A stretch of DNA of 64,000 bases from NCBI RefSeq assembly GCF_016863115.1, contig NZ_BOOG01000008.1, forward strand, positions 182,509 to 246,508, in the 5' to 3' direction. The notes under the pieces were generated by a model. The model was not told the DNA's origin and did not search any database. It saw only the letters and a program-made list of their open reading frames with translations. The translations under genes and the position numbers were made by a program. The DNA is from Sphaerimonospora thailandensis (GTDB lineage Bacteria > Actinomycetota > Actinomycetes > Streptosporangiales > Streptosporangiaceae). This document shows positions 31,957-42,080 of this stretch, in pieces (within the stretch, counting starts at the first letter, position 1; each line of letters opens with the position of its first letter).

Positions 31957-31961
31957 AAGCG
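31957..31961. repeat. Target-site duplication, left copy (AAGCG)
   Basis: Five bases directly outside the left GGGG end of the transposon, identical to 42076-42080 beyond the right end. Five-base duplications are characteristic of Tn3-family insertion. Confidence 0.93.
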
Positions 31962-32015
31962 GGGGTGCCGTTAACGAGCGGCGAACCAGGTGACAAGTAA
32001 CCCGTCAGTAGCCTT
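31962..32015. repeat. Left terminal inverted repeat
   Basis: The first 43 bases, starting GGGGTGCCGTTAACGAGCGG, are identical to the reverse complement of the right end. One mismatch at base 44 (T against C) is followed by ten more matches, so the repeat spans 54 bp. Tn3 family repeats are usually about 38 bp and start with GGGG; this pair is longer than usual. Confidence 0.95.
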
Positions 32016-32051
32016 TGATACGCAGGTCGGCTGCCCGCCAAGGCGGGGCCC

Positions 32052-32645
32052 TTACGCCGTTCCCTCGAACTGTCGGGGGATCTTGCCAAGGTGACGGTAG
32101 ATGGTGGGGCGGGTGACGCCGAACTCGTCGGCGATCTGCTGGACGGTGTAGGCGCGCTTGCCGTCGGAGCCTATTTCCTCGTACATCGCCTGCGCTAGCT
32201 TCACCTGGCGTGGGCCGAGTTTGGGTTTCTGGCCGCCGGTGCGGCCGCGGGCGCGGGCGGCGGCGAGGCCGTCCATGGTCCGTTCCGACATTAGGGCGTG
32301 TTCGAACTCGGCAATGGCGCCGAGGATCTGGAAGAACATGCGACCCACGGCCGTGGAGGTGTCGACGCCCTGATCGAGGACAACGAGGTCGACACCGCGC
32401 TCCTGGAGAGTGTTGGAGAGCTCGATGAGGTTCTCCAGGGAGCGGCCGAGGCGGTCGAGTTTAGTGACGACGATCTGGTCGCCTTCGCGGGCGACGAGGA
32501 GGGCCTTGTCGAGCTCGGGTCGGCGGGCGAGCTTGCCGGACGCCTTGTCAGTGAAGACCTGTTCGCATCCTGCGGCTTTCAGGGCGTCTTGTTGTGCTTC
32601 GGGGTGTTGGTCTCGGGTTGATACGCGCGCCACGCCGATTCGCAT
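32052..32645 (-). CDS. tnpR: Serine resolvase of the transposon
   Basis: 197-residue serine recombinase that resolves Tn3 cointegrates at a res site. The catalytic Ser is in 'IGVARVSTRDQHPEAQ' (Ser 9). The arginine-rich active-site region 'VTKLDRLGRSLENLIELSNT' and the E-helix 'GRMFFQILGAIAEFEHALMS' with 'ERTMDGLAAARARGRTGG' are all present. A C-terminal helix-turn-helix ('YTVQQIADEFGVTRPTIYRH') completes it. The ATG at 32645 fits the family start; the open frame extends upstream without homology. It is divergent from the cargo operon, so res probably lies in the spacer to its right. Confidence 0.95.
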   Translation of the reverse strand: MRIGVARVSTRDQHPEAQQDALKAAGCEQVFTDKASGKLARRPELDKALLVAREGDQIVVTKLDRLGRSLENLIELSNTLQERGVDLVVLDQGVDTSTAVGRMFFQILGAIAEFEHALMSERTMDGLAAARARGRTGGQKPKLGPRQVKLAQAMYEEIGSDGKRAYTVQQIADEFGVTRPTIYRHLGKIPRQFEGTA

Positions 32646-32976
32646 GCCTAGAACCGTATCGCGAAGGGGGGTGTGCGTGGCATAGGTGCGTACGCGGGAA
32701 TCGTTACAGTGTTGATCTGCGGGAACGCGGTCGCGCGCGGCATGTATCGCGAACGAACGTTTCCGTACGCCATTCCAGGGTCGCGCTCGTAGACCGGTGG
32801 TGACCGTCTTGTCGTTCAGTGCGGCGGTCTCCAAGGTTGCCACGGTGCAGACATAACTTCAGCCGCCTGGATACCAAGATCCCGTACAAACATCAAGTGC
32901 GCGGGCCGCTTGCGCCTGTCATACCCGCCCGTAAATATTGATTTACCAGGGTCCGGCCAGCAACCGGGAGGAACAC
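32646..32976. promoter_or_regulatory. Putative res region and cargo-operon promoter/operator
   Basis: 331 bases between the divergent resolvase and hydroxylase genes, without a gene. Near the resolvase are related motifs GCGTACGCGGGAATCGTT (about 32690) and, inverted, CGGAAACGTTCGTTCGCG (about 32750-32775), which could be resolvase-binding subsites; this is tentative. Close to the hydroxylase, GTAAAT-ATTG-ATTTAC (32931-32946) is a perfect 6-bp-arm palindrome 30 bases before the GTG start and is a good operator candidate for the RiPP operon. Confidence 0.45.
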
Positions 32977-33966
32977 GTGAGAGCGTCACTCGACTCGATC
33001 GCAGACTTACCCGAAGCCGCAAGACTGCGGTTGAGCTTCGACCCCGACAAGCTACAGCGCGACGTAGATCAGCTCAGTGAACGTACATGGGGTTCCCAGC
33101 GATCAGTGGTGGACGGGTGCGAGTTGACCCCCTCCACGGAGATCGACTGGCGTTGCCTCGCACTGCGCAGTCCCGGCGGGGACCCCGATCGAACAGATCC
33201 GGGTGGTCCCGGCATCGAGGGCTTCGCGGACACCCCATGGATCAGGCACACACCGTACCTGGCCGAGGTTCTCACATCGTTGCCCGCCGAACTGCGCAGT
33301 GTTCGCCTGATGTCGCTGGCGCCAGGCGTCCGGGTGCCGGAACACCGCGATACCCCGACCGGGCTGCCGTACGGATTCATACGCTTGCACGTGCCAGTCC
33401 GTACGAACCCGGGTGCGGTCCTGTCGATCGACAAGGTGGAGCACCGCTGGCAGCCGGGCACGTTGTGGTACGGGGACTTCAGCCGACTGCACAGCGTGAT
33501 CAACACCGGTGACCAGGTGCGGATCCACCTCGTCATCGACTGCTCGATCAGTCCGGAACTGCTCTCCCTGTTCCCAGAGCATTTCCAGAGCCGTGTCCCG
33601 ATGAGCGAGGTGGCGTACAGCCGCCCCGAGGTTCCCCTGCAAACGTTCGAACTCGCCGATTTCCGCTGCGAGGTGCTGGCCCCTCCGTGCGTGCTGCGAC
33701 TCGATGATCAGGCCAGCGAATCCGCAGAGCCAGATCTGCCCGCGCAAGTAATCGATCACGAGGGGACTCTCGTACTCAAGGTCAGTGGCGGCCCCAGCAT
33801 TGCCCTGGTCCACGTCGGGGGCGGAGACTTCCGCTTCCAGGGGTGGATCGAGGAGCGCGGGCTTCACCTTGACCTCTTCGGCGACTCCCCCCGCGCAGTC
33901 TTCTACACACGCCGTGGACGCCGACGCCAGCAGATCACGCGCACCGCTGCGCTTCCGCAGTCCTGA
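32977..33966 (+). CDS. Aspartyl/asparaginyl beta-hydroxylase-like 2-oxoglutarate oxygenase
   Basis: 329-residue protein with a jelly-roll Asp_Arg_Hydrox domain in its N-terminal two thirds. The iron ligands appear as HxD in 'GVRVPEHRDTPTGLPYGF' and a distal His in 'DFSRLHSVINTGDQVRIHLV', with Arg of 'QVRIHLVID' as the probable 2-oxoglutarate anchor. The C-terminal 110 residues are not recognised. The GTG at 32977 has GGGAGG five bases upstream. It is the first gene of the cargo operon and lies 154 bases before the bytA pentapeptide gene. I infer that it hydroxylates the ribosomal peptide or its cross-linked product; in characterised minimal bytAO pathways no such enzyme is required. Confidence 0.85.
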   Translation: MRASLDSIADLPEAARLRLSFDPDKLQRDVDQLSERTWGSQRSVVDGCELTPSTEIDWRCLALRSPGGDPDRTDPGGPGIEGFADTPWIRHTPYLAEVLTSLPAELRSVRLMSLAPGVRVPEHRDTPTGLPYGFIRLHVPVRTNPGAVLSIDKVEHRWQPGTLWYGDFSRLHSVINTGDQVRIHLVIDCSISPELLSLFPEHFQSRVPMSEVAYSRPEVPLQTFELADFRCEVLAPPCVLRLDDQASESAEPDLPAQVIDHEGTLVLKVSGGPSIALVHVGGGDFRFQGWIEERGLHLDLFGDSPRAVFYTRRGRRRQQITRTAALPQS

Positions 33967-34120
33967 CGCGCTGGTCGTCCAGCTCGTCTCCCGGGTGCGC
34001 CCGCAAGACCGCCGGCGCACCACTCTGATCGCGTGGGAGATCCGCGCTGTGCTTCACAGGGTGACCCACGCCTGCACTCCCACCGCCGCTCCCAAGCGGC
34101 CTGGCACGAGGAGGTTCACC

Positions 34121-34138
34121 ATGCGCTACCTCCACTGA
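34121..34138 (+). CDS. bytA: Biarylitide precursor pentapeptide MRYLH
   Basis: An 18-bp gene: ATG CGC TAC CTC CAC TGA, preceded by GAGGAGG with six-base spacing, the best ribosome binding site in the region. The product MRYLH fits the published biarylitide precursor pattern MRYxH (MRYYH, MRYFH), in which the side chains of Tyr3 and His5 are cross-linked by a P450 and the leader residues are removed to leave a tripeptide, here Tyr-Leu-His. The matching P450 gene follows 132 bases downstream. It is far too short for automatic gene finders. The sequence pattern, the ribosome binding site and the partner enzyme together make the assignment strong. Confidence 0.93.
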   Translation: MRYLH

Positions 34139-34148
34139 TCCACCAGCA

Positions 34149-34189
34149 GACAGCGGGTGCCCCGCCAGAATTCGGGGGCACCCGCTGTC
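34149..34189 (+). terminator. Hairpin between bytA and bytO
   Basis: Bases 34149-34163 and 34175-34189 form a perfect 15-bp stem (arm GACAGCGGGTGCCCC) with an 11-base loop. It begins ten bases after the bytA stop codon. No U tract follows. It could act as an attenuator that lets only part of the transcription reach the P450, or as a 3' stabiliser of a short bytA message. Either would raise precursor over enzyme. Confidence 0.75.
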
Positions 34190-34270
34190 CGCGCACGGCC
34201 CTCGTACGAGAGCTCACCCCGACCGGCTCCCCAGGCAAGCTGCCTGTCATACACGGCAGAAAGGCAAGTG

Positions 34271-35425
34271 ATGGAACTCTTCCGACCGCTGGACGACGCT
34301 ACCATCCGCGATCCACACCCCATGTACCACCACCTGCGCTCCGCCGACCCGGTCCACTGGTACGAGCCGCTCAACGCCTGGGTCATCAGCGGATACGAGG
34401 ACTGTCTGCTCGCACTGCGCCGTACCGAGATATTCTCCTCCGATCTACGGGCGGCCGGCATCGACGTCCCGGACAACCTGCTCAGCATCCAGACCCTGAA
34501 CCCGCCGGAACACGGCAGCGTTCACCGCGTCCTCATGGACGCCTACCGTCGCCAGGACTTCTCGGCGATCCGAGCCAGACTGGAGGACCGGGCCGACCAG
34601 CTACTGCGCGGGCTGTCAGGGCGGAGCAGATTCGAACTGGTCACGGACTTCACCGCGCCGCTGGCCTTCACGGCCGTGGCCGACCTCTTCGGCGTTCCGG
34701 ACGCCGACGAGAAGAGCATCGTTGCCTGGTCGGAAGCCATCGTCGCGGCCATGGACTCGGGTCTCACCCCGGAGGCCGCTGCTCCGGGCACCCTGGCCCG
34801 TGACAACCTCAGCGCCGTGATCTCCAACTGGCTCGATCAGAAGCCGCAGAATGGGCTGCTCGGAAATCTCCTCCGCGCAGAATCCGCCTCGGCGATCTCC
34901 CGCGACATGGTCCTGAACACGCTGCGTGCCACGCTCCACGCCGGTTACGCCCCCACCAGCAGGTTCATCGCGGCCTCCGTTCTCTCCTTGCTGCGGACTC
35001 CGGACAAGTGGCAGGAACTCCTCACAGCAGGGGTGAGCGAGACAGCGATCAAGGAACTACTGCGCCATTCCGGCCCCGTGCAGGCAGTTGCCCGTGTATG
35101 CGCCTCCGACTACGAACTCGGCGGCAGACTGCTCCGCCGTGGGAGCGACGTCATCGTGTTGATCGCCGCAGCCAATCGGGATCCACAGCAATTCCCGAAC
35201 CCTGACGAACTGGACCTCAAGCGGACCCCGAACCACAACCTGGGGTTCGGGTGGGGCACACACGCCTGTGCCGGTGCGTCTCTGGCCCGGCTCACCTGTT
35301 CTGTCGCGCTGACCACGCTGCTTCGGTACACTCCCGACCTGCAACTGGCCGGCGAGCCCGTCCACTGGCGCCACGCCACCTTGCGCGGGCTCCAAGAGCT
35401 TCCGGTGAGCGGAATACCGGCATGA
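34271..35425 (+). CDS. bytO: Cytochrome P450, biarylitide cross-linking enzyme
   Basis: 384-residue bacterial P450. The heme-binding loop is 'LGFGWGTHACAGASLARLTC' (FGxGxHxCxG, Cys near residue 333) and the K-helix ExxR is 'AIKELLRHSGPV'. The I-helix reads 'RATLHAGYAPTSRFIAAS': the usual acid before Thr (AGxE/DT) is missing, an unusual feature compatible with oxidative coupling rather than ordinary hydroxylation. Context identifies it: the 18-bp MRYLH gene lies directly upstream. It would join Tyr3 and His5 of the pentapeptide. The ATG at 34271 follows GAAAGGCAAGTG; the longer frame from 34157 lies across the hairpin. It overlaps the methyltransferase gene by ATGA. Confidence 0.92.
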   Translation: MELFRPLDDATIRDPHPMYHHLRSADPVHWYEPLNAWVISGYEDCLLALRRTEIFSSDLRAAGIDVPDNLLSIQTLNPPEHGSVHRVLMDAYRRQDFSAIRARLEDRADQLLRGLSGRSRFELVTDFTAPLAFTAVADLFGVPDADEKSIVAWSEAIVAAMDSGLTPEAAAPGTLARDNLSAVISNWLDQKPQNGLLGNLLRAESASAISRDMVLNTLRATLHAGYAPTSRFIAASVLSLLRTPDKWQELLTAGVSETAIKELLRHSGPVQAVARVCASDYELGGRLLRRGSDVIVLIAAANRDPQQFPNPDELDLKRTPNHNLGFGWGTHACAGASLARLTCSVALTTLLRYTPDLQLAGEPVHWRHATLRGLQELPVSGIPA

Positions 35426-36111
35426 GTCCCCTGGGACGAGGCACCGCATCCGACGGAAGCCCTGTTGCTCCAGACGGAAGCCCGGTCGGCCTCTACAGAG
35501 CCTTCCCGGCAGGCCGCGAACCGGAGATCATCCACAGAGCAGTTCCTCCCGCCGCGCCCATTCTCGAGCTCGGATGCGGCGCAGGCAGGATCACTCACGA
35601 GCTGACCGCACTCGGCCATCACGTGGTCGCAGTTGATCAGAGTGCTGAGATGCTGGCCCACGTTCACACCGGAACACGAGTCCATGCGGATATCGAAACG
35701 CTGGCGCTGCCCGAGCGCTTTCCCGCCGTGGTGCTCGCCAGCTACCTGGTGAACACGATCGTCCCCGGCCAGAGGGATGCCTTCCTTAAGACGTGCCACC
35801 GTCACGTCACGGACGAGGGGCTTGTCCTCGTCCAGCGCACCTCGCCTACCTGGGCAACTGCCCTGAAGGCGGGGCACACCGTGCGGTCCGACCGGATGGT
35901 TCTGACCATAACCGAGGCCCGCCTCGAATCCGGGGTGCTGTACGCGGCGCAGGAATGCCGCCACGGTGACACCACATGGACGCATGCGTGGACCGATGTC
36001 GTCTACTCCGATCGGGAGTTCGAGGAAGTGGTTAGGGCAGCCGGTTTCGCTCTGCTGCGATGGCTCGACCAAGACCAGGAATGGGCCGCGCTCCAGCCGC
36101 TGCCCCGCTGA
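35422..36111 (+). CDS. SAM-dependent methyltransferase of the biarylitide cluster
   Basis: 229-residue class I methyltransferase. Motif I is 'PILELGCGAGRITHELTALG', the acidic loop is 'HHVVAVDQSAEMLAHV', and motif post-I/II is 'ERFPAVVLASYLVNTIV'. The C-terminal part with 'YAAQECRHGDTTWTHAWTDV' is the probable substrate side. The ATG overlaps the bytO stop, so the two are translationally coupled. I infer methylation of the cross-linked peptide, possibly on the Tyr oxygen, His ring or a terminus. No methyltransferase was needed in the described bytAO pathway, so this points to a modified product. Confidence 0.85.
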   Translation: MSPLGRGTASDGSPVAPDGSPVGLYRAFPAGREPEIIHRAVPPAAPILELGCGAGRITHELTALGHHVVAVDQSAEMLAHVHTGTRVHADIETLALPERFPAVVLASYLVNTIVPGQRDAFLKTCHRHVTDEGLVLVQRTSPTWATALKAGHTVRSDRMVLTITEARLESGVLYAAQECRHGDTTWTHAWTDVVYSDREFEEVVRAAGFALLRWLDQDQEWAALQPLPR

Positions 36112-36180
36112 CAATCCCGCCCCGCCGGTACCGTGGAGGGGCTCGGCCGGACACACCCTCCCGCCGAGCCCCAGCTCCGC

Positions 36181-37479
36181 CTACGCTGCCTGATCCTCCG
36201 CAGGCAGCCGGGTTGCCTGCCCGTCCTCGCGGGGGCGCATGGACGCCCCGCACCACGCCAGGGTCAGCAGGCCGAGGGAGCCCACGATCACGATCACGAT
36301 GTGGGGCGGCAAGAACTCCGCGACCGCGCCGGCAGCGGCGAACCCCAGCCCCTGGGTGATCATCAGACCCGCCAGCGTGATGGTCAGCGCCCGTCCGCGC
36401 AGTTCCTCGGGGGTCGCGTCGAGGACCCGCTGGTCCAGCCCCATAGCGTAGGTGAAGCCGAGACCGCACACCGCCAGCAGGGCCCCTGACGTCCACAGAC
36501 CGGGGCGGAAGGCGAACCCCAGCAGCGGGAGGAACATCAGCGTGGCGGTTGGCAGCACCATCCGGACCCGGGTTCCTGCGGTAAGCAAGGTGCCGGCCAG
36601 CAACTCGCCGACCACCGAGCCCGCCGGCGCGGCACACAGCAGCAACCCCACGGCAGCCGGGCCGCCGCCGAACTCGTCCGCGTAAGGAGAGGCCAGAGCT
36701 TCGGGGGCGACGGCGAAAGCGGGCGGCAGCCAGGTCAGCAACAGCAGCGGACGGAGCCCGGGGACAGCCAGCACCTGCCGTACGCCCGACAAGGACGCAC
36801 GGGCCACCGAACCGTGCGCACCGTTTTCCGGCTGGCGGGCCGGCCGACGGCGGGTCCCGAACCGGAGGAGCAAGACCGCCAGGCCGAATCCCGCCGCGGC
36901 CGCGAGCAGGGCCTGCGAGGAGGTCATCACGAGGAGCAGCAGCCCGCCGACCGCGAAGCCGATGATCTGGGTGCTCTGCGAGACGAGCCGCAGCAGGGAT
37001 CGGCCGAGCGCGTACCCTGAGCCGGACAGCAGGTCCGGCAGGCTCGCCGCGCGGGCCCCTTGGAACACCGGGGCGACGGTGCCGAGCACCAGCAGCAGGA
37101 CGAGCAGGACGGGAATGGGAATGCCGGGAAGTGCCATGGTGCCGACCACCACGCAACTGACCGCCTGACAGGCCACCATGACGTCCTGGGCGGGATGCCG
37201 GTCAGCCACTGCCGACAGCAATGTTGCCCCGAAGACGTAGGGGGCAAAGCCAAGCGCGAACGTCAGCGAGGACAGCAGCGGCGACTGCGTCCGCTGGTAC
37301 ACCGTGATCGAGAGCGTGATCTGTGCGACGACATTGCCCAGAGTCGCGATGACCTGCGCGAGGAAGATCATGCGGAACTCGCGTACAGCCAGGACCGTAC
37401 GGTACGTGGCGGGCGCGGTGGAAGTGGAAGGGGCGGCGGAGTCGCTCTGCTGAGGGACGCGGGAGCTGTGCTGAGACAT
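36181..37479 (-). CDS. MFS transporter of the biarylitide cluster
   Basis: About 432 residues with 11-12 membrane helices, of the MFS_3/EntS-like drug-exporter type. The loop 2-3 signature is 'YVFGATLLSAVADRHPAQDV', and the middle loop carries 'RRRPARQPENGAHGSVARAS'. It is expected to export the peptide product or confer self-protection. It is convergent with the methyltransferase and divergent from the ArsR-type regulator across about 97 bases with an inverted repeat. Several ATGs exist at the start (37491, 37479); none has a strong ribosome binding site. Confidence 0.88.
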   Translation of the reverse strand: MSQHSSRVPQQSDSAAPSTSTAPATYRTVLAVREFRMIFLAQVIATLGNVVAQITLSITVYQRTQSPLLSSLTFALGFAPYVFGATLLSAVADRHPAQDVMVACQAVSCVVVGTMALPGIPIPVLLVLLLVLGTVAPVFQGARAASLPDLLSGSGYALGRSLLRLVSQSTQIIGFAVGGLLLLVMTSSQALLAAAAGFGLAVLLLRFGTRRRPARQPENGAHGSVARASLSGVRQVLAVPGLRPLLLLTWLPPAFAVAPEALASPYADEFGGGPAAVGLLLCAAPAGSVVGELLAGTLLTAGTRVRMVLPTATLMFLPLLGFAFRPGLWTSGALLAVCGLGFTYAMGLDQRVLDATPEELRGRALTITLAGLMITQGLGFAAAGAVAEFLPPHIVIVIVGSLGLLTLAWCGASMRPREDGQATRLPAEDQAA

Positions 37480-37517
37480 GGAACGCAGCATCCAGACCAC
37501 CCCGGTCGCGGTTCAAT

Positions 37518-37539
37518 GGATTTGGAAATAGCCGAATCC
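37518..37539. promoter_or_regulatory. Inverted repeat in exporter/regulator spacer
   Basis: GGATTTGG (37518-37525) and CCGAATCC (37532-37539), separated by six bases, pair with one mismatch. They lie in the middle of the divergent promoter region between the MFS exporter and the ArsR-type regulator, where autorepression and exporter control would be expected. Confidence 0.5.
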
Positions 37540-37576
37540 ACCGGCCTGTTGCGGCCATGAGAGACAAGGTGCGGTC

Positions 37577-38629
37577 ATGGCGGTGCAGTTGCTCGTGGAG
37601 ACAGCGGACCTGCTGAAATGCCGCTTCGCGCTCTCCCCACTGTGGGAGACCGTCGCCGCCGTACGGACCCTCACTGATCCCCGTCGCCAGGCATACCACC
37701 TGCCCTGGCTGAGGAATCTCCGCCCCCAGCTCGACGAGAAACAACTCTCCCCGCTCCTGACCCTCCTCCCGCATACCGGGTACACACCGGACTTCCTGAC
37801 CCCGCCCCCGACCGGCCCGCTCTCAGAGATCGAGGACGAACTGGCCCGGGTCGCAGACACCCCCACCACCCATGTGAGGGAGGAACTCGACCGCTGTCTC
37901 CACGGGCCCGAACGGAACACGCCTCCGCCCCCCGAAGTCGCCGACCGTCTCCTCGCCGACCCCGCTCGCACCCTCGCTCAGCTCGTCACCCTGATCCGTG
38001 CCTGCTGGAACTGGCTCATCGCCCCGCAATGGACCCAGCTCCGGGATTTGCTCGATGCCGACATCGCCGTCAGATCTCGGCAATTGACCGAGGGCGGGCT
38101 CCATCGCATGCTCACCGAGTTGCACCCCACCATCACCTGGCACGAACTCGGCGCACTCCACATCGCGGCTCCGCACCAGACCCGGCACCCCCTCAACGGG
38201 CAAGGGCTCCTACTCCTACCGAGCGCCTTCGTATGGCCGGCGCTCACCGTGGTGGTCGAAGCACCCTGGCAGCCCACCCTGATCTACCCGGCGCGCGGAG
38301 TCGGTGACCTCTGGCAGTCCTCACCCCACCCGCCAGCGCCACGAAGCCTCCAGCGCCTCATCGGACGCACCCGCGCCAAGGTGCTGACCAGCCTGAGCAA
38401 GCCCACCTCGACCAGCACCTTGGCCCGAAACCTCGGCCTGAGCCCCGCCACCGTCTCCGAGCACCTCGCCACGCTCCGTGACGCAGGTCTGGTTTCTCGC
38501 TACCGCGTGGGTCGCACGGTTTACTACGCACCCACCGCCTTGGGCACGGCGCTGGGCCAGGACCCCGCCCACGGAACCGACACCGCCGGAGGACGGGCAG
38601 ATGACGCACCCATCGTGCTGAAGCCCTGA
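37577..38629 (+). CDS. ArsR-type regulator with large N-terminal domain (DUF5937-like)
   Basis: 350-residue regulator. The N-terminal 250 residues form a domain typical of actinobacterial ArsR-like regulators ('LLKCRFALSPLWETVAAVRT', 'RQAYHLPWLRNLRPQL'). The winged helix is C-terminal, about residues 265-330: 'IGRTRAKVLTSLSKPTSTST', 'LARNLGLSPATVSEHLATLR', wing 'SRYRVGRTVYYAPT'. It is divergent from the MFS exporter with a shared palindrome and is the only dedicated regulator in the transposon, so it probably controls export and perhaps the whole cluster. The ligand may be the product itself. Confidence 0.88.
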   Translation: MAVQLLVETADLLKCRFALSPLWETVAAVRTLTDPRRQAYHLPWLRNLRPQLDEKQLSPLLTLLPHTGYTPDFLTPPPTGPLSEIEDELARVADTPTTHVREELDRCLHGPERNTPPPPEVADRLLADPARTLAQLVTLIRACWNWLIAPQWTQLRDLLDADIAVRSRQLTEGGLHRMLTELHPTITWHELGALHIAAPHQTRHPLNGQGLLLLPSAFVWPALTVVVEAPWQPTLIYPARGVGDLWQSSPHPPAPRSLQRLIGRTRAKVLTSLSKPTSTSTLARNLGLSPATVSEHLATLRDAGLVSRYRVGRTVYYAPTALGTALGQDPAHGTDTAGGRADDAPIVLKP

Positions 38630-38897
38630 GGAACAAAAGCATCCGCCCCGCTGGCCAGAACCGCTACTCTGGTGGCCGGACGGTGATCCCGGTAACCGAG
38701 GGACGACTTCTTCGTCTGCTCCGAGCCCCGGGCCCGGATGAGGAAGTGATCGCCTACACCGGCGACGTGGACTCCGTCCTGCGGTAGAGCCGGTACCGGT
38801 ACTACGTCATCCCGTCCCTTCGGGCACTTCGCCGATACTTGCGCCCGCTTTACACCGGCGCCCCTACCGTCCAGTCCGAGATGGAAGGGGCTGTGGA
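38630..38897. other. Spacer before transposase, possible short remnant
   Basis: A GTG-started frame at about 38691-38788 reads 'VIPVTEGRLLRLLRAPGPDE' and stops at 'TGDVDSVLR'. I do not recognise it and it has no clear ribosome binding site. Nothing else is evident. The promoter of tnpA must lie here or in the preceding gene. Confidence 0.35.
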
Positions 38898-41800
38898 GTG
38901 GGGCGGGATCTGGGACTGGACGGGGTGGTGGACCACTTCACCCTGTCCGGCGACGAGACGGGATGGCTACGCAACAAGACCGGGGCGACGAGGCTGGGCT
39001 TCGCCGTCCAGCTCAAGTTCTTGACCTGGCGCGGCCGGTTTCCCCGGATGCGCATGGAGCTGCCGCCCGATGCGGTCGAGCACGTCGCCAAGCAGGTCGG
39101 CGTTGCCGCGTCCGAGCTGGGGTTTTACGACTTCACCTCGCGTGCCGCGAAGCGGCACCGCAGCGAGCTGAGGGATCTGACGGGCTGGCACGAGTGCACC
39201 AAGACCGACCTGGTCAAGCTCGTCTCGCACCTGGTGGACGTGATCTGGCACGACGAGCGCCGTGAGGAGCAGGTGCGGGCAGAGCTACTGCGGCAGATGC
39301 GCGTGGACCTGATTGAGCCGCCCACCGCGGCCCAGGTCAACACGGTCATCCGGTCCGCGCTGCACCAGGCCGACGAGCGGGCCGTCGCCGAGGTCGCCGC
39401 CCGGCTCGCGCGGGCGAAGGACTGCACGCGGCGGCTGGACGCGCTGGCCTTCACGGACCCGATCGGCACCGGCACCGAGCCGGGCGACAGCGCGACCGTG
39501 GACGGCGACGATACGACGGACGAGGAGAATGTCGAGTCGGTGCTGGCCGACATCAAGGCGCATCCGGGCAACGTCAGCCTCAACTCGCTGCTGGACGAGA
39601 TCTCCAAGCTGGGGCAAGTCCGCGCCGTCGGCGTCCCAGCCAAGGCGTTCGCCGGCATCGGCGTGCAGGTCATCAACGCCTGGCGGGCCCGTGCCTCCGC
39701 GTCCTCGCCCAGCCACCTGCGGCGCTTCGACGCCTCCATACGGCACGTGCTGCTAGCCGCGTTGCTGTTCCAGCGGCAGCGGGAGATCACCGACACCTTG
39801 GTGGAGTTGCTGAACTCCACCGTGCACCGCATCAACGCGCGCGCCGAGAAGAAGGTGACCGAGGCGTTCGTCGCAGAGTTCACCAAGGTCCGGGGCAAGG
39901 CCGGACTCCTCGGGAAGATCGCCGCCGCTTCCCTCGGCGCCCCCGAGGGAAGCGTGCGGGAGGTGATCTACCCAGCTGTCGGCGGGGAGAAGACGCTCAA
40001 GGACCTGGTCGCCGAGATGAAGGCGACCAACGCCGAGTTCGCCCGCTCGAAGCGGGAGGTGTTCAAGTCCTCGTATAGCAACCACTACCGCAGCGGGCTG
40101 ATGAAGCTCCTGGGCGTGCTGGATTTCCGCTCCTCCAACGACAGGCACAAGCCCGTCATCGAGGCGCTGAAGCTGATCAAGCGGCACAAGGACTCCTCCA
40201 CCACCTACCTCCCGCTTGGCGAGACCATCCCACTGGAGGGGGTGGTACGCAAGGACTGGATGGAGTTCGCGATCTTCACTCCCGACAAGGGGCCCCAGCG
40301 CGTCATGCGCACCGTCTACGAAGCGTGCGTCTTCCAGGCCCTGCGCGACCGGCTGCGCTGCAAGGAGATCTGGGTGGTCGGCGCCGACAAGTGGCGTAAC
40401 CCCGACGACGACCTGCCCGACGACTTCGAGGTCCGGCGCGCGGAGTACTACGAGAAGCTGAACAAGCCACGCGACGCGAAGATGTTCATAGCCCAGCTCC
40501 AGAGCGAGATGCGCGCCGAGCTCGGCGCCCTGGACACCAAGCTGCCGAAGCTGCCCTGGGTGACGATCAGCGGCAAGCACCGCAACGGGATGATCAAGTT
40601 CAGCGAGCCCGAACCGCAAAAGGAACCCAAGAACCTGCGCAAACTCAAGAAGGCGATCCGCAAGAAGTGGGGCACCGTCGCTCTCATCGACATCCTCAAA
40701 GAGGCCGCCCTGCGCACCGGGATGCTCAAGGCCCTCGCCCCGGTCGGCACCCGGGAGGCGATCGGCGAGGCGAAGCTCCTGGAACGCCTGCTCCTGATCG
40801 CGTACGCGTACGGCACTAACTCAGGGATCAGCGCGGTCGCCGCCGGTGAGCACGGGCACAGCGAGGAGGAGCTCCGCTACACCGCGCGGCGCTATCTGAC
40901 TGCGGTCGGCCTCAAGGCCGCTGGGGTGGAGATTGCCAACGCCACCTTCGCCGCCCGCCAGGAAACCGTCTGGGGGCAGGGCACCACCACCGTCGCCTCC
41001 GACTCCACACACTTCAAGGCATGGGACCGCAACATCTTCACCGAGTGGCACTCCCGGTACGGGGGCCGCGGCGTGCTCGTGTACTGGCACATCGAGAAAG
41101 GTTCGATGGCCATTCACAGCCAGCTTCTCAACTGCACCGCCTCCGAGGTCGCCGCCGCGATCGAGGGGATCATGCGCCACGCCACGACCATGCAGGCCGA
41201 AGGCAACTATGTCGATTCACACGGCCAGTCGGAAATCGGGTTCGGACTGACCCGGCTCCTGGGCTACGACCTGCTGCCCCGCATCAAGCAGATCAACAAG
41301 GTCAAGCTCTACCGACCCGGCCGCGAGGACGAGGAAGCCTACGACAACCTCGCCGACGCGATGACCCGCCCGATCCGCTGGGACGTCATCAAGAACAACT
41401 ACGACCAGCTCATCAAGTACGCCACCGCCATCCGGGTCGGCACTGCCACCACCGAGGCGATCCTTCGGCGCTTCACCCGCACCGCCTCCCACCCCGTCTA
41501 CCAGGCCATGCTCGAAGTCGGCCGCGCGCAGAAGACCATCTTCGTCGCCCGCTACCTACGCGACCGCGATCTCCAGCGCGAGATCCAGGAAGGGCTCAAC
41601 GTCGTCGAGGGCTGGAACGGCGCCAACGACATCATCTTTTTCGGCAAGAGCGGCGAACTTTCCTCCAATCGCCGTGACCAGCAAGAACTGTCCGTTCTCG
41701 CACTCCATCTCCTGCAAACGGCGCTCGTCTTCGTGAACACCCTGATGATCCAGGACATGCTTGCCGACCCCGAATGGGCCGACGTCCTCACCGACGAGGA

Positions 41801-41933
41801 CAAACGCGCCCTGACCCCGCTGTTCTGGATGCACATCCAGCCGTACGGCGAGGTGCGGCTGAATATGTGCAGCCGCCTCCAGTTCGCCACCCCCGTCCCC
41901 CAGGCCCCGGTTCCCGACCCCGCTGCAGCCTGA
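38898..41933 (+). CDS. tnpA: Tn3-family transposase
   Basis: 1011-residue transposase that performs replicative transposition. The N-terminal DUF4158 region starts with 'LGLDGVVDHFTLSGDETGWL' and 'GATRLGFAVQLKFLTWRGRF'. The C-terminal DDE domain has the first Asp in 'VASDSTHFKAWDRN' (near residue 703), the second in 'NYVDSHGQSEIGFGLTRLLG' (near 773) and the Glu in 'GLNVVEGWNGANDIIFFGKS' (near 904). Length and motif order are normal and no frame defect is seen, so it should be functional. The GTG start fits homologous N-termini. It ends 88 bases before the right inverted repeat. Confidence 0.97.
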   Translation: MGRDLGLDGVVDHFTLSGDETGWLRNKTGATRLGFAVQLKFLTWRGRFPRMRMELPPDAVEHVAKQVGVAASELGFYDFTSRAAKRHRSELRDLTGWHECTKTDLVKLVSHLVDVIWHDERREEQVRAELLRQMRVDLIEPPTAAQVNTVIRSALHQADERAVAEVAARLARAKDCTRRLDALAFTDPIGTGTEPGDSATVDGDDTTDEENVESVLADIKAHPGNVSLNSLLDEISKLGQVRAVGVPAKAFAGIGVQVINAWRARASASSPSHLRRFDASIRHVLLAALLFQRQREITDTLVELLNSTVHRINARAEKKVTEAFVAEFTKVRGKAGLLGKIAAASLGAPEGSVREVIYPAVGGEKTLKDLVAEMKATNAEFARSKREVFKSSYSNHYRSGLMKLLGVLDFRSSNDRHKPVIEALKLIKRHKDSSTTYLPLGETIPLEGVVRKDWMEFAIFTPDKGPQRVMRTVYEACVFQALRDRLRCKEIWVVGADKWRNPDDDLPDDFEVRRAEYYEKLNKPRDAKMFIAQLQSEMRAELGALDTKLPKLPWVTISGKHRNGMIKFSEPEPQKEPKNLRKLKKAIRKKWGTVALIDILKEAALRTGMLKALAPVGTREAIGEAKLLERLLLIAYAYGTNSGISAVAAGEHGHSEEELRYTARRYLTAVGLKAAGVEIANATFAARQETVWGQGTTTVASDSTHFKAWDRNIFTEWHSRYGGRGVLVYWHIEKGSMAIHSQLLNCTASEVAAAIEGIMRHATTMQAEGNYVDSHGQSEIGFGLTRLLGYDLLPRIKQINKVKLYRPGREDEEAYDNLADAMTRPIRWDVIKNNYDQLIKYATAIRVGTATTEAILRRFTRTASHPVYQAMLEVGRAQKTIFVARYLRDRDLQREIQEGLNVVEGWNGANDIIFFGKSGELSSNRRDQQELSVLALHLLQTALVFVNTLMIQDMLADPEWADVLTDEDKRALTPLFWMHIQPYGEVRLNMCSRLQFATPVPQAPVPDPAAA

Positions 41934-42021
41934 TGCGGTGTCCGATACCCCCCACCACACTGGCCTCCTCGCCGACCAGCAGGGAACCAGCGTGGCGCTC
42001 AGGGCTGGCGCCTTCGATCCG

Positions 42022-42075
42022 AAGGCTACTGGCGGGTTACTTGTCACCTGGTTCGCCGCTCGTTAACGGCACCCC
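42022..42075. repeat. Right terminal inverted repeat
   Basis: Reverse complement of the left repeat: 43 identical bases from the outer end, then one mismatch and ten matches. The outer CCCC at 42072-42075 is followed directly by AAGCG. Confidence 0.95.
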
Positions 42076-42080
42076 AAGCG
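42076..42080. repeat. Target-site duplication, right copy (AAGCG)
   Basis: Five bases identical to 31957-31961. Together with the repeats they fix the borders of the transposon to the base. Confidence 0.93.

Follow-up and report, generated by a model that had tools for sequence, protein, structure and literature searches.

A Tn3-family transposon carrying a six-gene biarylitide-type cluster with an 18-bp precursor gene in Sphaerimonospora thailandensis

Introduction

The cytochrome P450 P450Blt of Micromonospora sp. MW-13 (PDB 8U2M) cross-links the pentapeptide MRYLH, its native substrate, with a specificity governed by I-helix residues 231, 234 and 238; single mutants at these positions, E238A included, had lowered activity, and His234 is said to direct C-N coupling (PMC10929621; the PMC articles cited here are drawn on in excerpt). 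No hydroxylase, methyltransferase or transposon is described for this pathway in the excerpted text. The identical pentapeptide is the substrate of a homologous P450, RufO (PDB 8SPP, 9DUJ and 9EBY), in the rufomycin pathway of Streptomyces atratus, where it is nitrated (PMC12186263, also for the PDB assignment of P450Blt). The myxarylin cluster of the myxobacterium Pyxidicoccus fallax (bytA, encoding MNYLH, with bytO and bytZ) includes a SAM methyltransferase, and its Tyr-Leu-His core has a published C-N link and N-terminal methylation; the excerpts of PMC8708641 and PMC12951456 make no mention of a hydroxylase, and it was stated in 2021 that the biarylitide loci of other organisms lack a methyltransferase gene (PMC8708641). 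The sav cluster of Saccharothrix variisporea (SavB, SavH and SavT) does have an aspartyl/asparaginyl beta-hydroxylase gene, together with an MRYVH precursor, a C-C cross-link and an amidinotransferase in place of a methyltransferase, but the hydroxylated product was not detected (PMC13417212). AchB of Actinomadura hibisca forms a C-N link, and the biological function of biarylitides is given as unknown (PMC13417212).

Tn3-family unit transposons combine the genes tnpA and tnpR with terminal inverted repeats that start GGGG and with a 5-bp target site duplication. The repeats are usually about 38 bp long.

Here we describe a locus in a 64-kb stretch of Sphaerimonospora thailandensis DNA (the window), where, with high probability, a 10,114-bp Tn3-family transposon carries a six-gene biarylitide cluster whose P450 is predicted to link Tyr3 to His5 of MRYLH. 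What the sequence shows directly is the set of cluster parts and the fact that they are conserved together, both ends of the transposon with the duplicated target, and the hybrid sequence on either side of the precursor gene.

Results

An 18-bp gene encodes MRYLH

The first-pass annotation of this DNA had proposed an 18-bp gene for MRYLH behind a GAGGAGG ribosome binding site, followed by a P450 gene, and direct reading bore this out. The precursor gene bytA (ATGCGCTACCTCCACTGA; codons ATG-CGC-TAC-CTC-CAC-TGA) occupies 34121-34138 on the forward strand, its GAGGAGG site lies at 34108-34114 on the same strand with a 6-nt spacer to the ATG, and the P450 gene begins with an ATG at 34271, 132 nt after the bytA stop codon, and ends at 35425, as had been said. 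The accompanying view that the published precursors are MRYYH and MRYFH was outdated: MRYLH is already known as a precursor from P450Blt and RufO, so it is not new.

The strict pattern ATGMGNTAYNNNCAYTRR had a single match in the window (mean 0.00 in 100 shuffles) and occurred once in the whole 6.18-Mb genome, where the reversed-pattern control also gave 1 match per strand; the motif by itself is thus no proof, and the weight of bytA comes from its context. With ATG, GTG or TTG allowed as start, neither strand of the window held an M-x-[YWH]-x-[YWH]-stop ORF other than bytA.

That context is conserved. MRYLH was found at the same position in 6/6 close homologous loci (L003-L008; P450 identity 67-93%), as two tandem copies in five of them and as one copy in the sixth, giving 11 copies in the relatives and, with that of the window, 12 in 7 loci. 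Each of the 12 ATG codons is preceded by a purine-rich stretch resembling a ribosome binding site. The search of homologous loci for such an ORF, which the first-pass annotation had suggested as a check, was extended to 109 loci other than our own (ATG or GTG starts, within 2.5 kb or the available flank): in 87 of them an aromatic ORF of five codons accompanied by an RBS-like string was present, and in 22, including 12 outgroup P450 rows, it was absent. A five-codon MxYx[H/Y] precursor with a ribosome binding site adjoining the P450 gene, as expected of a biarylitide locus, is therefore what the window contains.

MRYLH might instead be the last five residues of a longer precursor, given that the frame is open for 123 codons upstream in the window (in-frame ORF 33785-34138) with several GTG and TTG starts on the way. 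We rejected this reading and give it next to no chance, because 5/12 MRYLH copies have no other upstream in-frame start, copy 2 of locus L005 having just 3 open codons before its ATG, and because all 12 copies have the RBS-like stretch directly before their own ATG.

As a separate observation, five-codon MRHxH ORFs, which would be His-x-His precursors, lie just 3' of related P450 genes with an MFS gene alongside in loci L024, L026, L043, L047, L049, L051 and L055; His at precursor position 3 is mentioned in PMC13417212.

The P450 belongs with the biarylitide enzymes

The gene at 34271-35425 (forward strand) encodes a biarylitide-type cytochrome P450 of 384 aa, a relative of P450Blt and RufO as judged from PDB sequence matches, the P450 tree and its I-helix, LRATLHAGYAP. 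By sequence, the nearest PDB chains were those of RufO (303.8 bits) and P450Blt (293.8 bits), with the unassigned chain 22yx between them. Among the matches listed, the window P450 shared 66-93% identity with at least 12 near-full-length relatives and with a shorter protein of 296 aa, and the next match fell to 41%. In the close loci the identity was 93% for Streptomyces lichenis, 83% for S. chumphonensis, 77% for S. ipomoeae, 77-78% for two further Streptomyces and 67% for Lentzea xinjiangensis.

The first-pass annotation had also asked for a P450 phylogeny, which we built from 86 rows out of a total of 121, leaving out 35 (13 Streptomyces loci with MKYWH and 22 from the range L083-L111). The window P450 grouped with the biarylitide P450s, in a 16-row clade with support of 100/100, and a branch with 100/100 support set every other row apart from the 12 outgroup P450s, which have canonical I-helices. 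The deep branching order was poorly supported, and the P450Blt row formed a long branch outside the window's clade with its exact placement unsure. Within the limits set by these weak deep branches, both sequence and tree make the enzyme one of the BytO/P450Blt kind. The RufO chain showed zero branch length to the S. atratus locus (L014), as it should, and the RufO clade stood apart from that of the window.

The residues that matter in P450Blt are kept in part. The window P450 retains the equivalent of His234 and has Val at the position of V169, where RufO has Asp169 (F helix); Ala and Pro stand in its clade where P450Blt has E238 and S239. The string HAGYAP was seen in this clade alone, in 15 of its 16 rows, the exception (P0005) having HAGYTS.

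These residues bear on what the enzyme does with its peptide. RufO-like nitration or some other oxidation of Tyr3, instead of cross-linking, is suggested by the action of RufO on the same MRYLH peptide (PMC12186263) and by the higher scores of the RufO chains over P450Blt in the PDB search. The RufO-type loci L014 and L020, however, have a NO synthase gene between MRYLH and the P450 gene, whereas a NO synthase search found no match in the window's own genome (the same search being positive in 2/14 control genomes); the window P450 shares Val with P450Blt in place of Asp169, and the RufO clade is separate in the tree. Nitration or another oxidation of this kind is thus highly improbable. Since no NO synthase was found in the genome and His234 is kept, a C-N link between Tyr3 and His5 of MRYLH is the predicted reaction.

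An altered outcome is harder to set aside. With A238/P239 in place of E238/S239, and with P450Blt mutants reduced in activity, a biarylitide P450 of this kind could give a C-C or C-O link or a hydroxylation; residues 231, 234 and 238 control specificity in P450Blt (PMC10929621), and HAGYAP sets the window's clade apart. Against this, His234 is retained, and the A. hibisca enzyme (L027, HAGYTS) likewise lacks E238, AchB of that species being the C-N-forming enzyme of PMC13417212. We consider a different outcome unlikely, and C-N cross-linking remains our prediction.

Six genes are conserved as a unit

The cluster runs in the order Asp/Asn-type hydroxylase, bytA, P450, CypM-like methyltransferase, MFS transporter and ArsR/DUF5937 regulator, and these six genes are kept together in 7/7 loci (the window and its six close relatives), with the five protein genes present in 6/6 relatives. 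Compared with S. lichenis, a conserved block at 32872-38615 with 90-91.5% DNA identity spans the whole cluster. Locus L008 has its methyltransferase gene on the opposite strand, and in S. chumphonensis (L004, 9850-12150) about 2.3 kb of extra DNA with overlapping long ORFs occupies the gap between the methyltransferase and MFS genes.

The first gene (32977-33966, forward strand, GTG start) encodes a 329-aa aspartyl/asparaginyl beta-hydroxylase-type Fe/2OG oxygenase (PF05118, 61.5 bits against a cut-off of 22.6). H122, H171 and R181 were invariant in the alignment and D124 nearly so (numbered from base 32980), and Foldseek matches included proline hydroxylases and Cpz10. Beyond the window's clade, hydroxylase homologues occurred in 15/103 loci, with the precursors MRYLH, MKYWH, MRYIH, MRYAY, MRYDH, MSYDH and MRYRH.

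Downstream of the P450 gene, a class I SAM methyltransferase of 229 aa is encoded at 35422-36111 (forward strand), its start codon overlapping the P450 stop codon (ATGA). By structure comparison its nearest fold was CypM, with YunM and TylM1 closely behind, and CorZ was not among the structure matches listed. No methyltransferase homologue was found outside the clade in the 103 loci (E up to 1e-8, within the available flanks). An MFS transporter gene follows on the reverse strand (36181-37500; PF07690, PF05977; probable exporter, whose true start may be internal), and divergent from it, on the forward strand, is a gene for a DUF5937/ArsR-type HTH regulator (37577-38629; PF19361, PF01022).

A fused methyltransferase-hydroxylase protein, P0313, was considered as a sign that the two enzymes act jointly; its hydroxylase part was 50% identical, but this hint was dropped because its methyltransferase part was weakly similar (30% over 104 columns). 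Separately, Pseudonocardia sp. TMWB2A has a relative of the methyltransferase (P0142, 56%) and one of the hydroxylase (P0268, 49%), seemingly on one contig (217140 bases, the longest for both), and no P450 of the window's clade among the matches listed beside them; this is possibly a related cluster with a different cyclase.

The first-pass reading of the locus as biarylitide-type is thus supported by the placement of the P450 and by the MRYLH ORFs of the close loci. Its unit of precursor plus P450 stood in that both are present, but the unit is larger, comprising six genes within a Tn3-family transposon.

bytA has hybrid flanks and a hairpin behind it

In S. lichenis, two bytA copies lie 63 bp apart. 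The 45 bases 5' of the window bytA matched those of copy 1 at 44/45 positions and those of copy 2 at 20/45, whereas the bases on its 3' side matched copy 2 (the first 28 identical, 46/60 ungapped) and did not match copy 1 (23/60); the Leu codon CTC is also that of copy 2. The single bytA of the window therefore resembles two tandem copies fused into one, and from these hybrid flanks we infer, as the simplest history, a deletion between two direct repeats that left one hybrid gene.

Folding of the bases between bytA and the P450 gene (34139-34200) gave a hairpin with a perfect 15-bp stem at 34149-34189 (forward strand; -40 kcal/mol, z -5.7 for the region). In the window and in each of the six relatives, a hairpin lies 3' of the final bytA (-26 to -49 kcal/mol per 66 bases); against mononucleotide shuffles these hairpins were strong, except for those of L006 (z -1.2) and L005 (z -2.4), which were weak. 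A possible role is that of an attenuator or 3' stabiliser. A promoter and terminator scan gave no more sites than in shuffles.

The cluster rides in a Tn3-family transposon

The transposon spans 31962-42075 (10,114 bp) and carries the cluster as its cargo. Its left terminal inverted repeat (31962-32015, forward strand) and right repeat (42022-42075, reverse strand) are 54 bp long and start GGGG, with 53/54 outer bases the same, and they belong to the longest inverted repeat in 26000-48000 (31962-32026 paired with 42011-42075). Directly outside them is a perfect 5-bp target site duplication, AAGCG, at 31957-31961 and 42076-42080. Next to the left end, tnpR (32052-32645, reverse strand, ATG start) encodes a small serine resolvase of 197 aa (PF00239 Resolvase, PF02796 HTH_7), and next to the right end tnpA (38898-41933, forward strand) encodes a full-length Tn3-family transposase of 1011 aa (PF01526; NF033527, 750 bits against a cut-off of 500), with the cluster between the two. 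A full-length TnpA, a serine resolvase, GGGG-starting repeats and a 5-bp duplication are together what is expected of the Tn3 family. The interval 32646-32871, between tnpR and the cluster, is the expected place of a res site.

The relatives have the cluster in another setting. No TnpA, TnpR or transposon repeat was found near the clusters of L001-L111 in the flanks searched (for L003-L082 these reached 8 kb at most, less where a contig ended, and for L083-L111 they were about 1.5 kb), so that a single transposon-borne copy of the cluster was seen; a whole-genome TnpA search of six relatives gave no match in three, 49-59% identity in two and fragments in one. One could argue from this that the cluster is native to the genome and that the Tn3 genes adjoin it by chance. 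Chance adjacency is nevertheless quite improbable: the near-identical repeats enclose tnpR, the cluster and tnpA, with a perfect duplication outside; a query with the left end found the repeat at these two places only in the genome; the same vehicle occurs with other cargo in Streptomyces; and GC content is 66.7% inside the transposon against 69.6% and 71.1% on its two sides in the window. The cluster is therefore carried in a Tn3-family transposon with intact ends, for which mobility is predicted.

Searches for an empty target site gave, besides our own genome, short or weak matches for the left flank against 100 family genomes (among the matches listed) and for the right flank against 2 genomes of the genus; no empty site was found, the flanks being unconserved in the single congener compared. 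The search for plasmid-borne copies of the cluster found none (a weak 96-base match in 2 records), and that for the transposon repeat in viral contigs was likewise negative.

Sibling elements in Streptomyces have different cargo

The core of the repeat was found, with at most 2 mismatches, in 30/392 Streptomyces genomes, the reversed control giving 0 among the matches listed. Five facing repeat pairs were examined, of which three had perfect 5-bp duplications (GACAC, AACTC and TCGTT), one a 4/5 match and one a mismatched pair. TnpA matches of 85-95% were present in 3/5 pairs, one of them whole and the other two broken or partial. None of the five carried the cluster described here, their cargo being different. 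L143, L144 and L145 share the terminal repeats, with perfect duplications and different cargo; transposase sequence 88-95% identical to TnpA is present in L143 and L144 (broken in L144), and L145 has a resolvase match and no transposase match. With the window element, these three would form a family of cargo-swapping vehicles in actinomycetes.

In L147, 1.56 kb separates the facing repeats, with no TnpA or TnpR match and no matching target duplication; it may be a MITE-like remnant of this transposon family. A Streptomyces plasmid carries one identical repeat, a recombinase gene, a related tnpA in two annotated pieces and other cargo; a plasmid resolvase gene without an adjoining transposase is described in PMC12724294.

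Streptomyces is also home to most of the nearest relatives of the cluster. The best 4-5 P450 candidates per genome were scored in both groups: the window's P450 clade was present in 1/341 genomes of the host's family (its own, with 32 others matching at 34-44% identity) and in 2/392 Streptomyces genomes. The I-helix strings and precursors of Nonomuraea and Actinomadura loci recur in several genomes of the host's family. Between the host and S. lichenis, DNA identity was higher for the cluster (90-91.5%) than for the rpoB region (85-87%), which, with the Streptomyces vehicle, points to a recent move of the cluster from a Streptomyces-like donor.

Discussion

In the pathway that we propose, MRYLH would be made by the ribosome, with the strong hairpin 3' of bytA likely giving more precursor than P450 message. 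The P450 would then bond a carbon of the Tyr ring to a nitrogen of the His ring, a C-N coupling proposed because the His234 that directs it in P450Blt is kept, and Met-Arg would be removed by a protease encoded outside the cluster. By analogy with myxarylin, the CypM-like methyltransferase may methylate the Tyr amine freed in this way, the Fe/2OG oxygenase may hydroxylate a beta carbon of some residue of the peptide, and the MFS protein would export the product under the control of the ArsR/DUF5937 regulator. The conserved tailoring, transport and regulator genes thus predict a methylated, hydroxylated and cross-linked Tyr-Leu-His.

Each described system shares some of these features. P450Blt has the same precursor and the His234 and Val169 equivalents, but stands outside the window's P450 clade and has E238/S239; the RufO pathway shares the precursor and a homologous P450 but nitrates its peptide. 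Myxarylin has the Tyr-Leu-His core and a SAM methyltransferase, but in a myxobacterial host and from MNYLH, and the sav cluster shares the hydroxylase gene. In the literature consulted we found no description of a variant tailored by both hydroxylase and methyltransferase; the word methyltransferase is absent from the main text of PMC13417212, whose table of 277 clusters may list relatives. Compared with the usual Tn3-family transposons, the window element has repeats that match over 54 bp and a complete RiPP cluster as cargo, and as far as our searches show it is the first biarylitide-type cluster seen as cargo of this family.

It is probable that a complete minimal RiPP factory, built around the smallest kind of gene known, crosses bacterial families as Tn3 cargo, while its tandem 18-bp precursor genes serve as sites of recombination through which copy number changes on the way. 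The natural A238/P239 variant offers a probe of current ideas on how the I-helix sets the cross-link. Biarylitide clusters are scattered over unrelated bacteria, and intact transposon ends with a target duplication provide a concrete vehicle for that scatter; carriage as transposon cargo would help to account for the spread of such small peptide factories among different bacteria.
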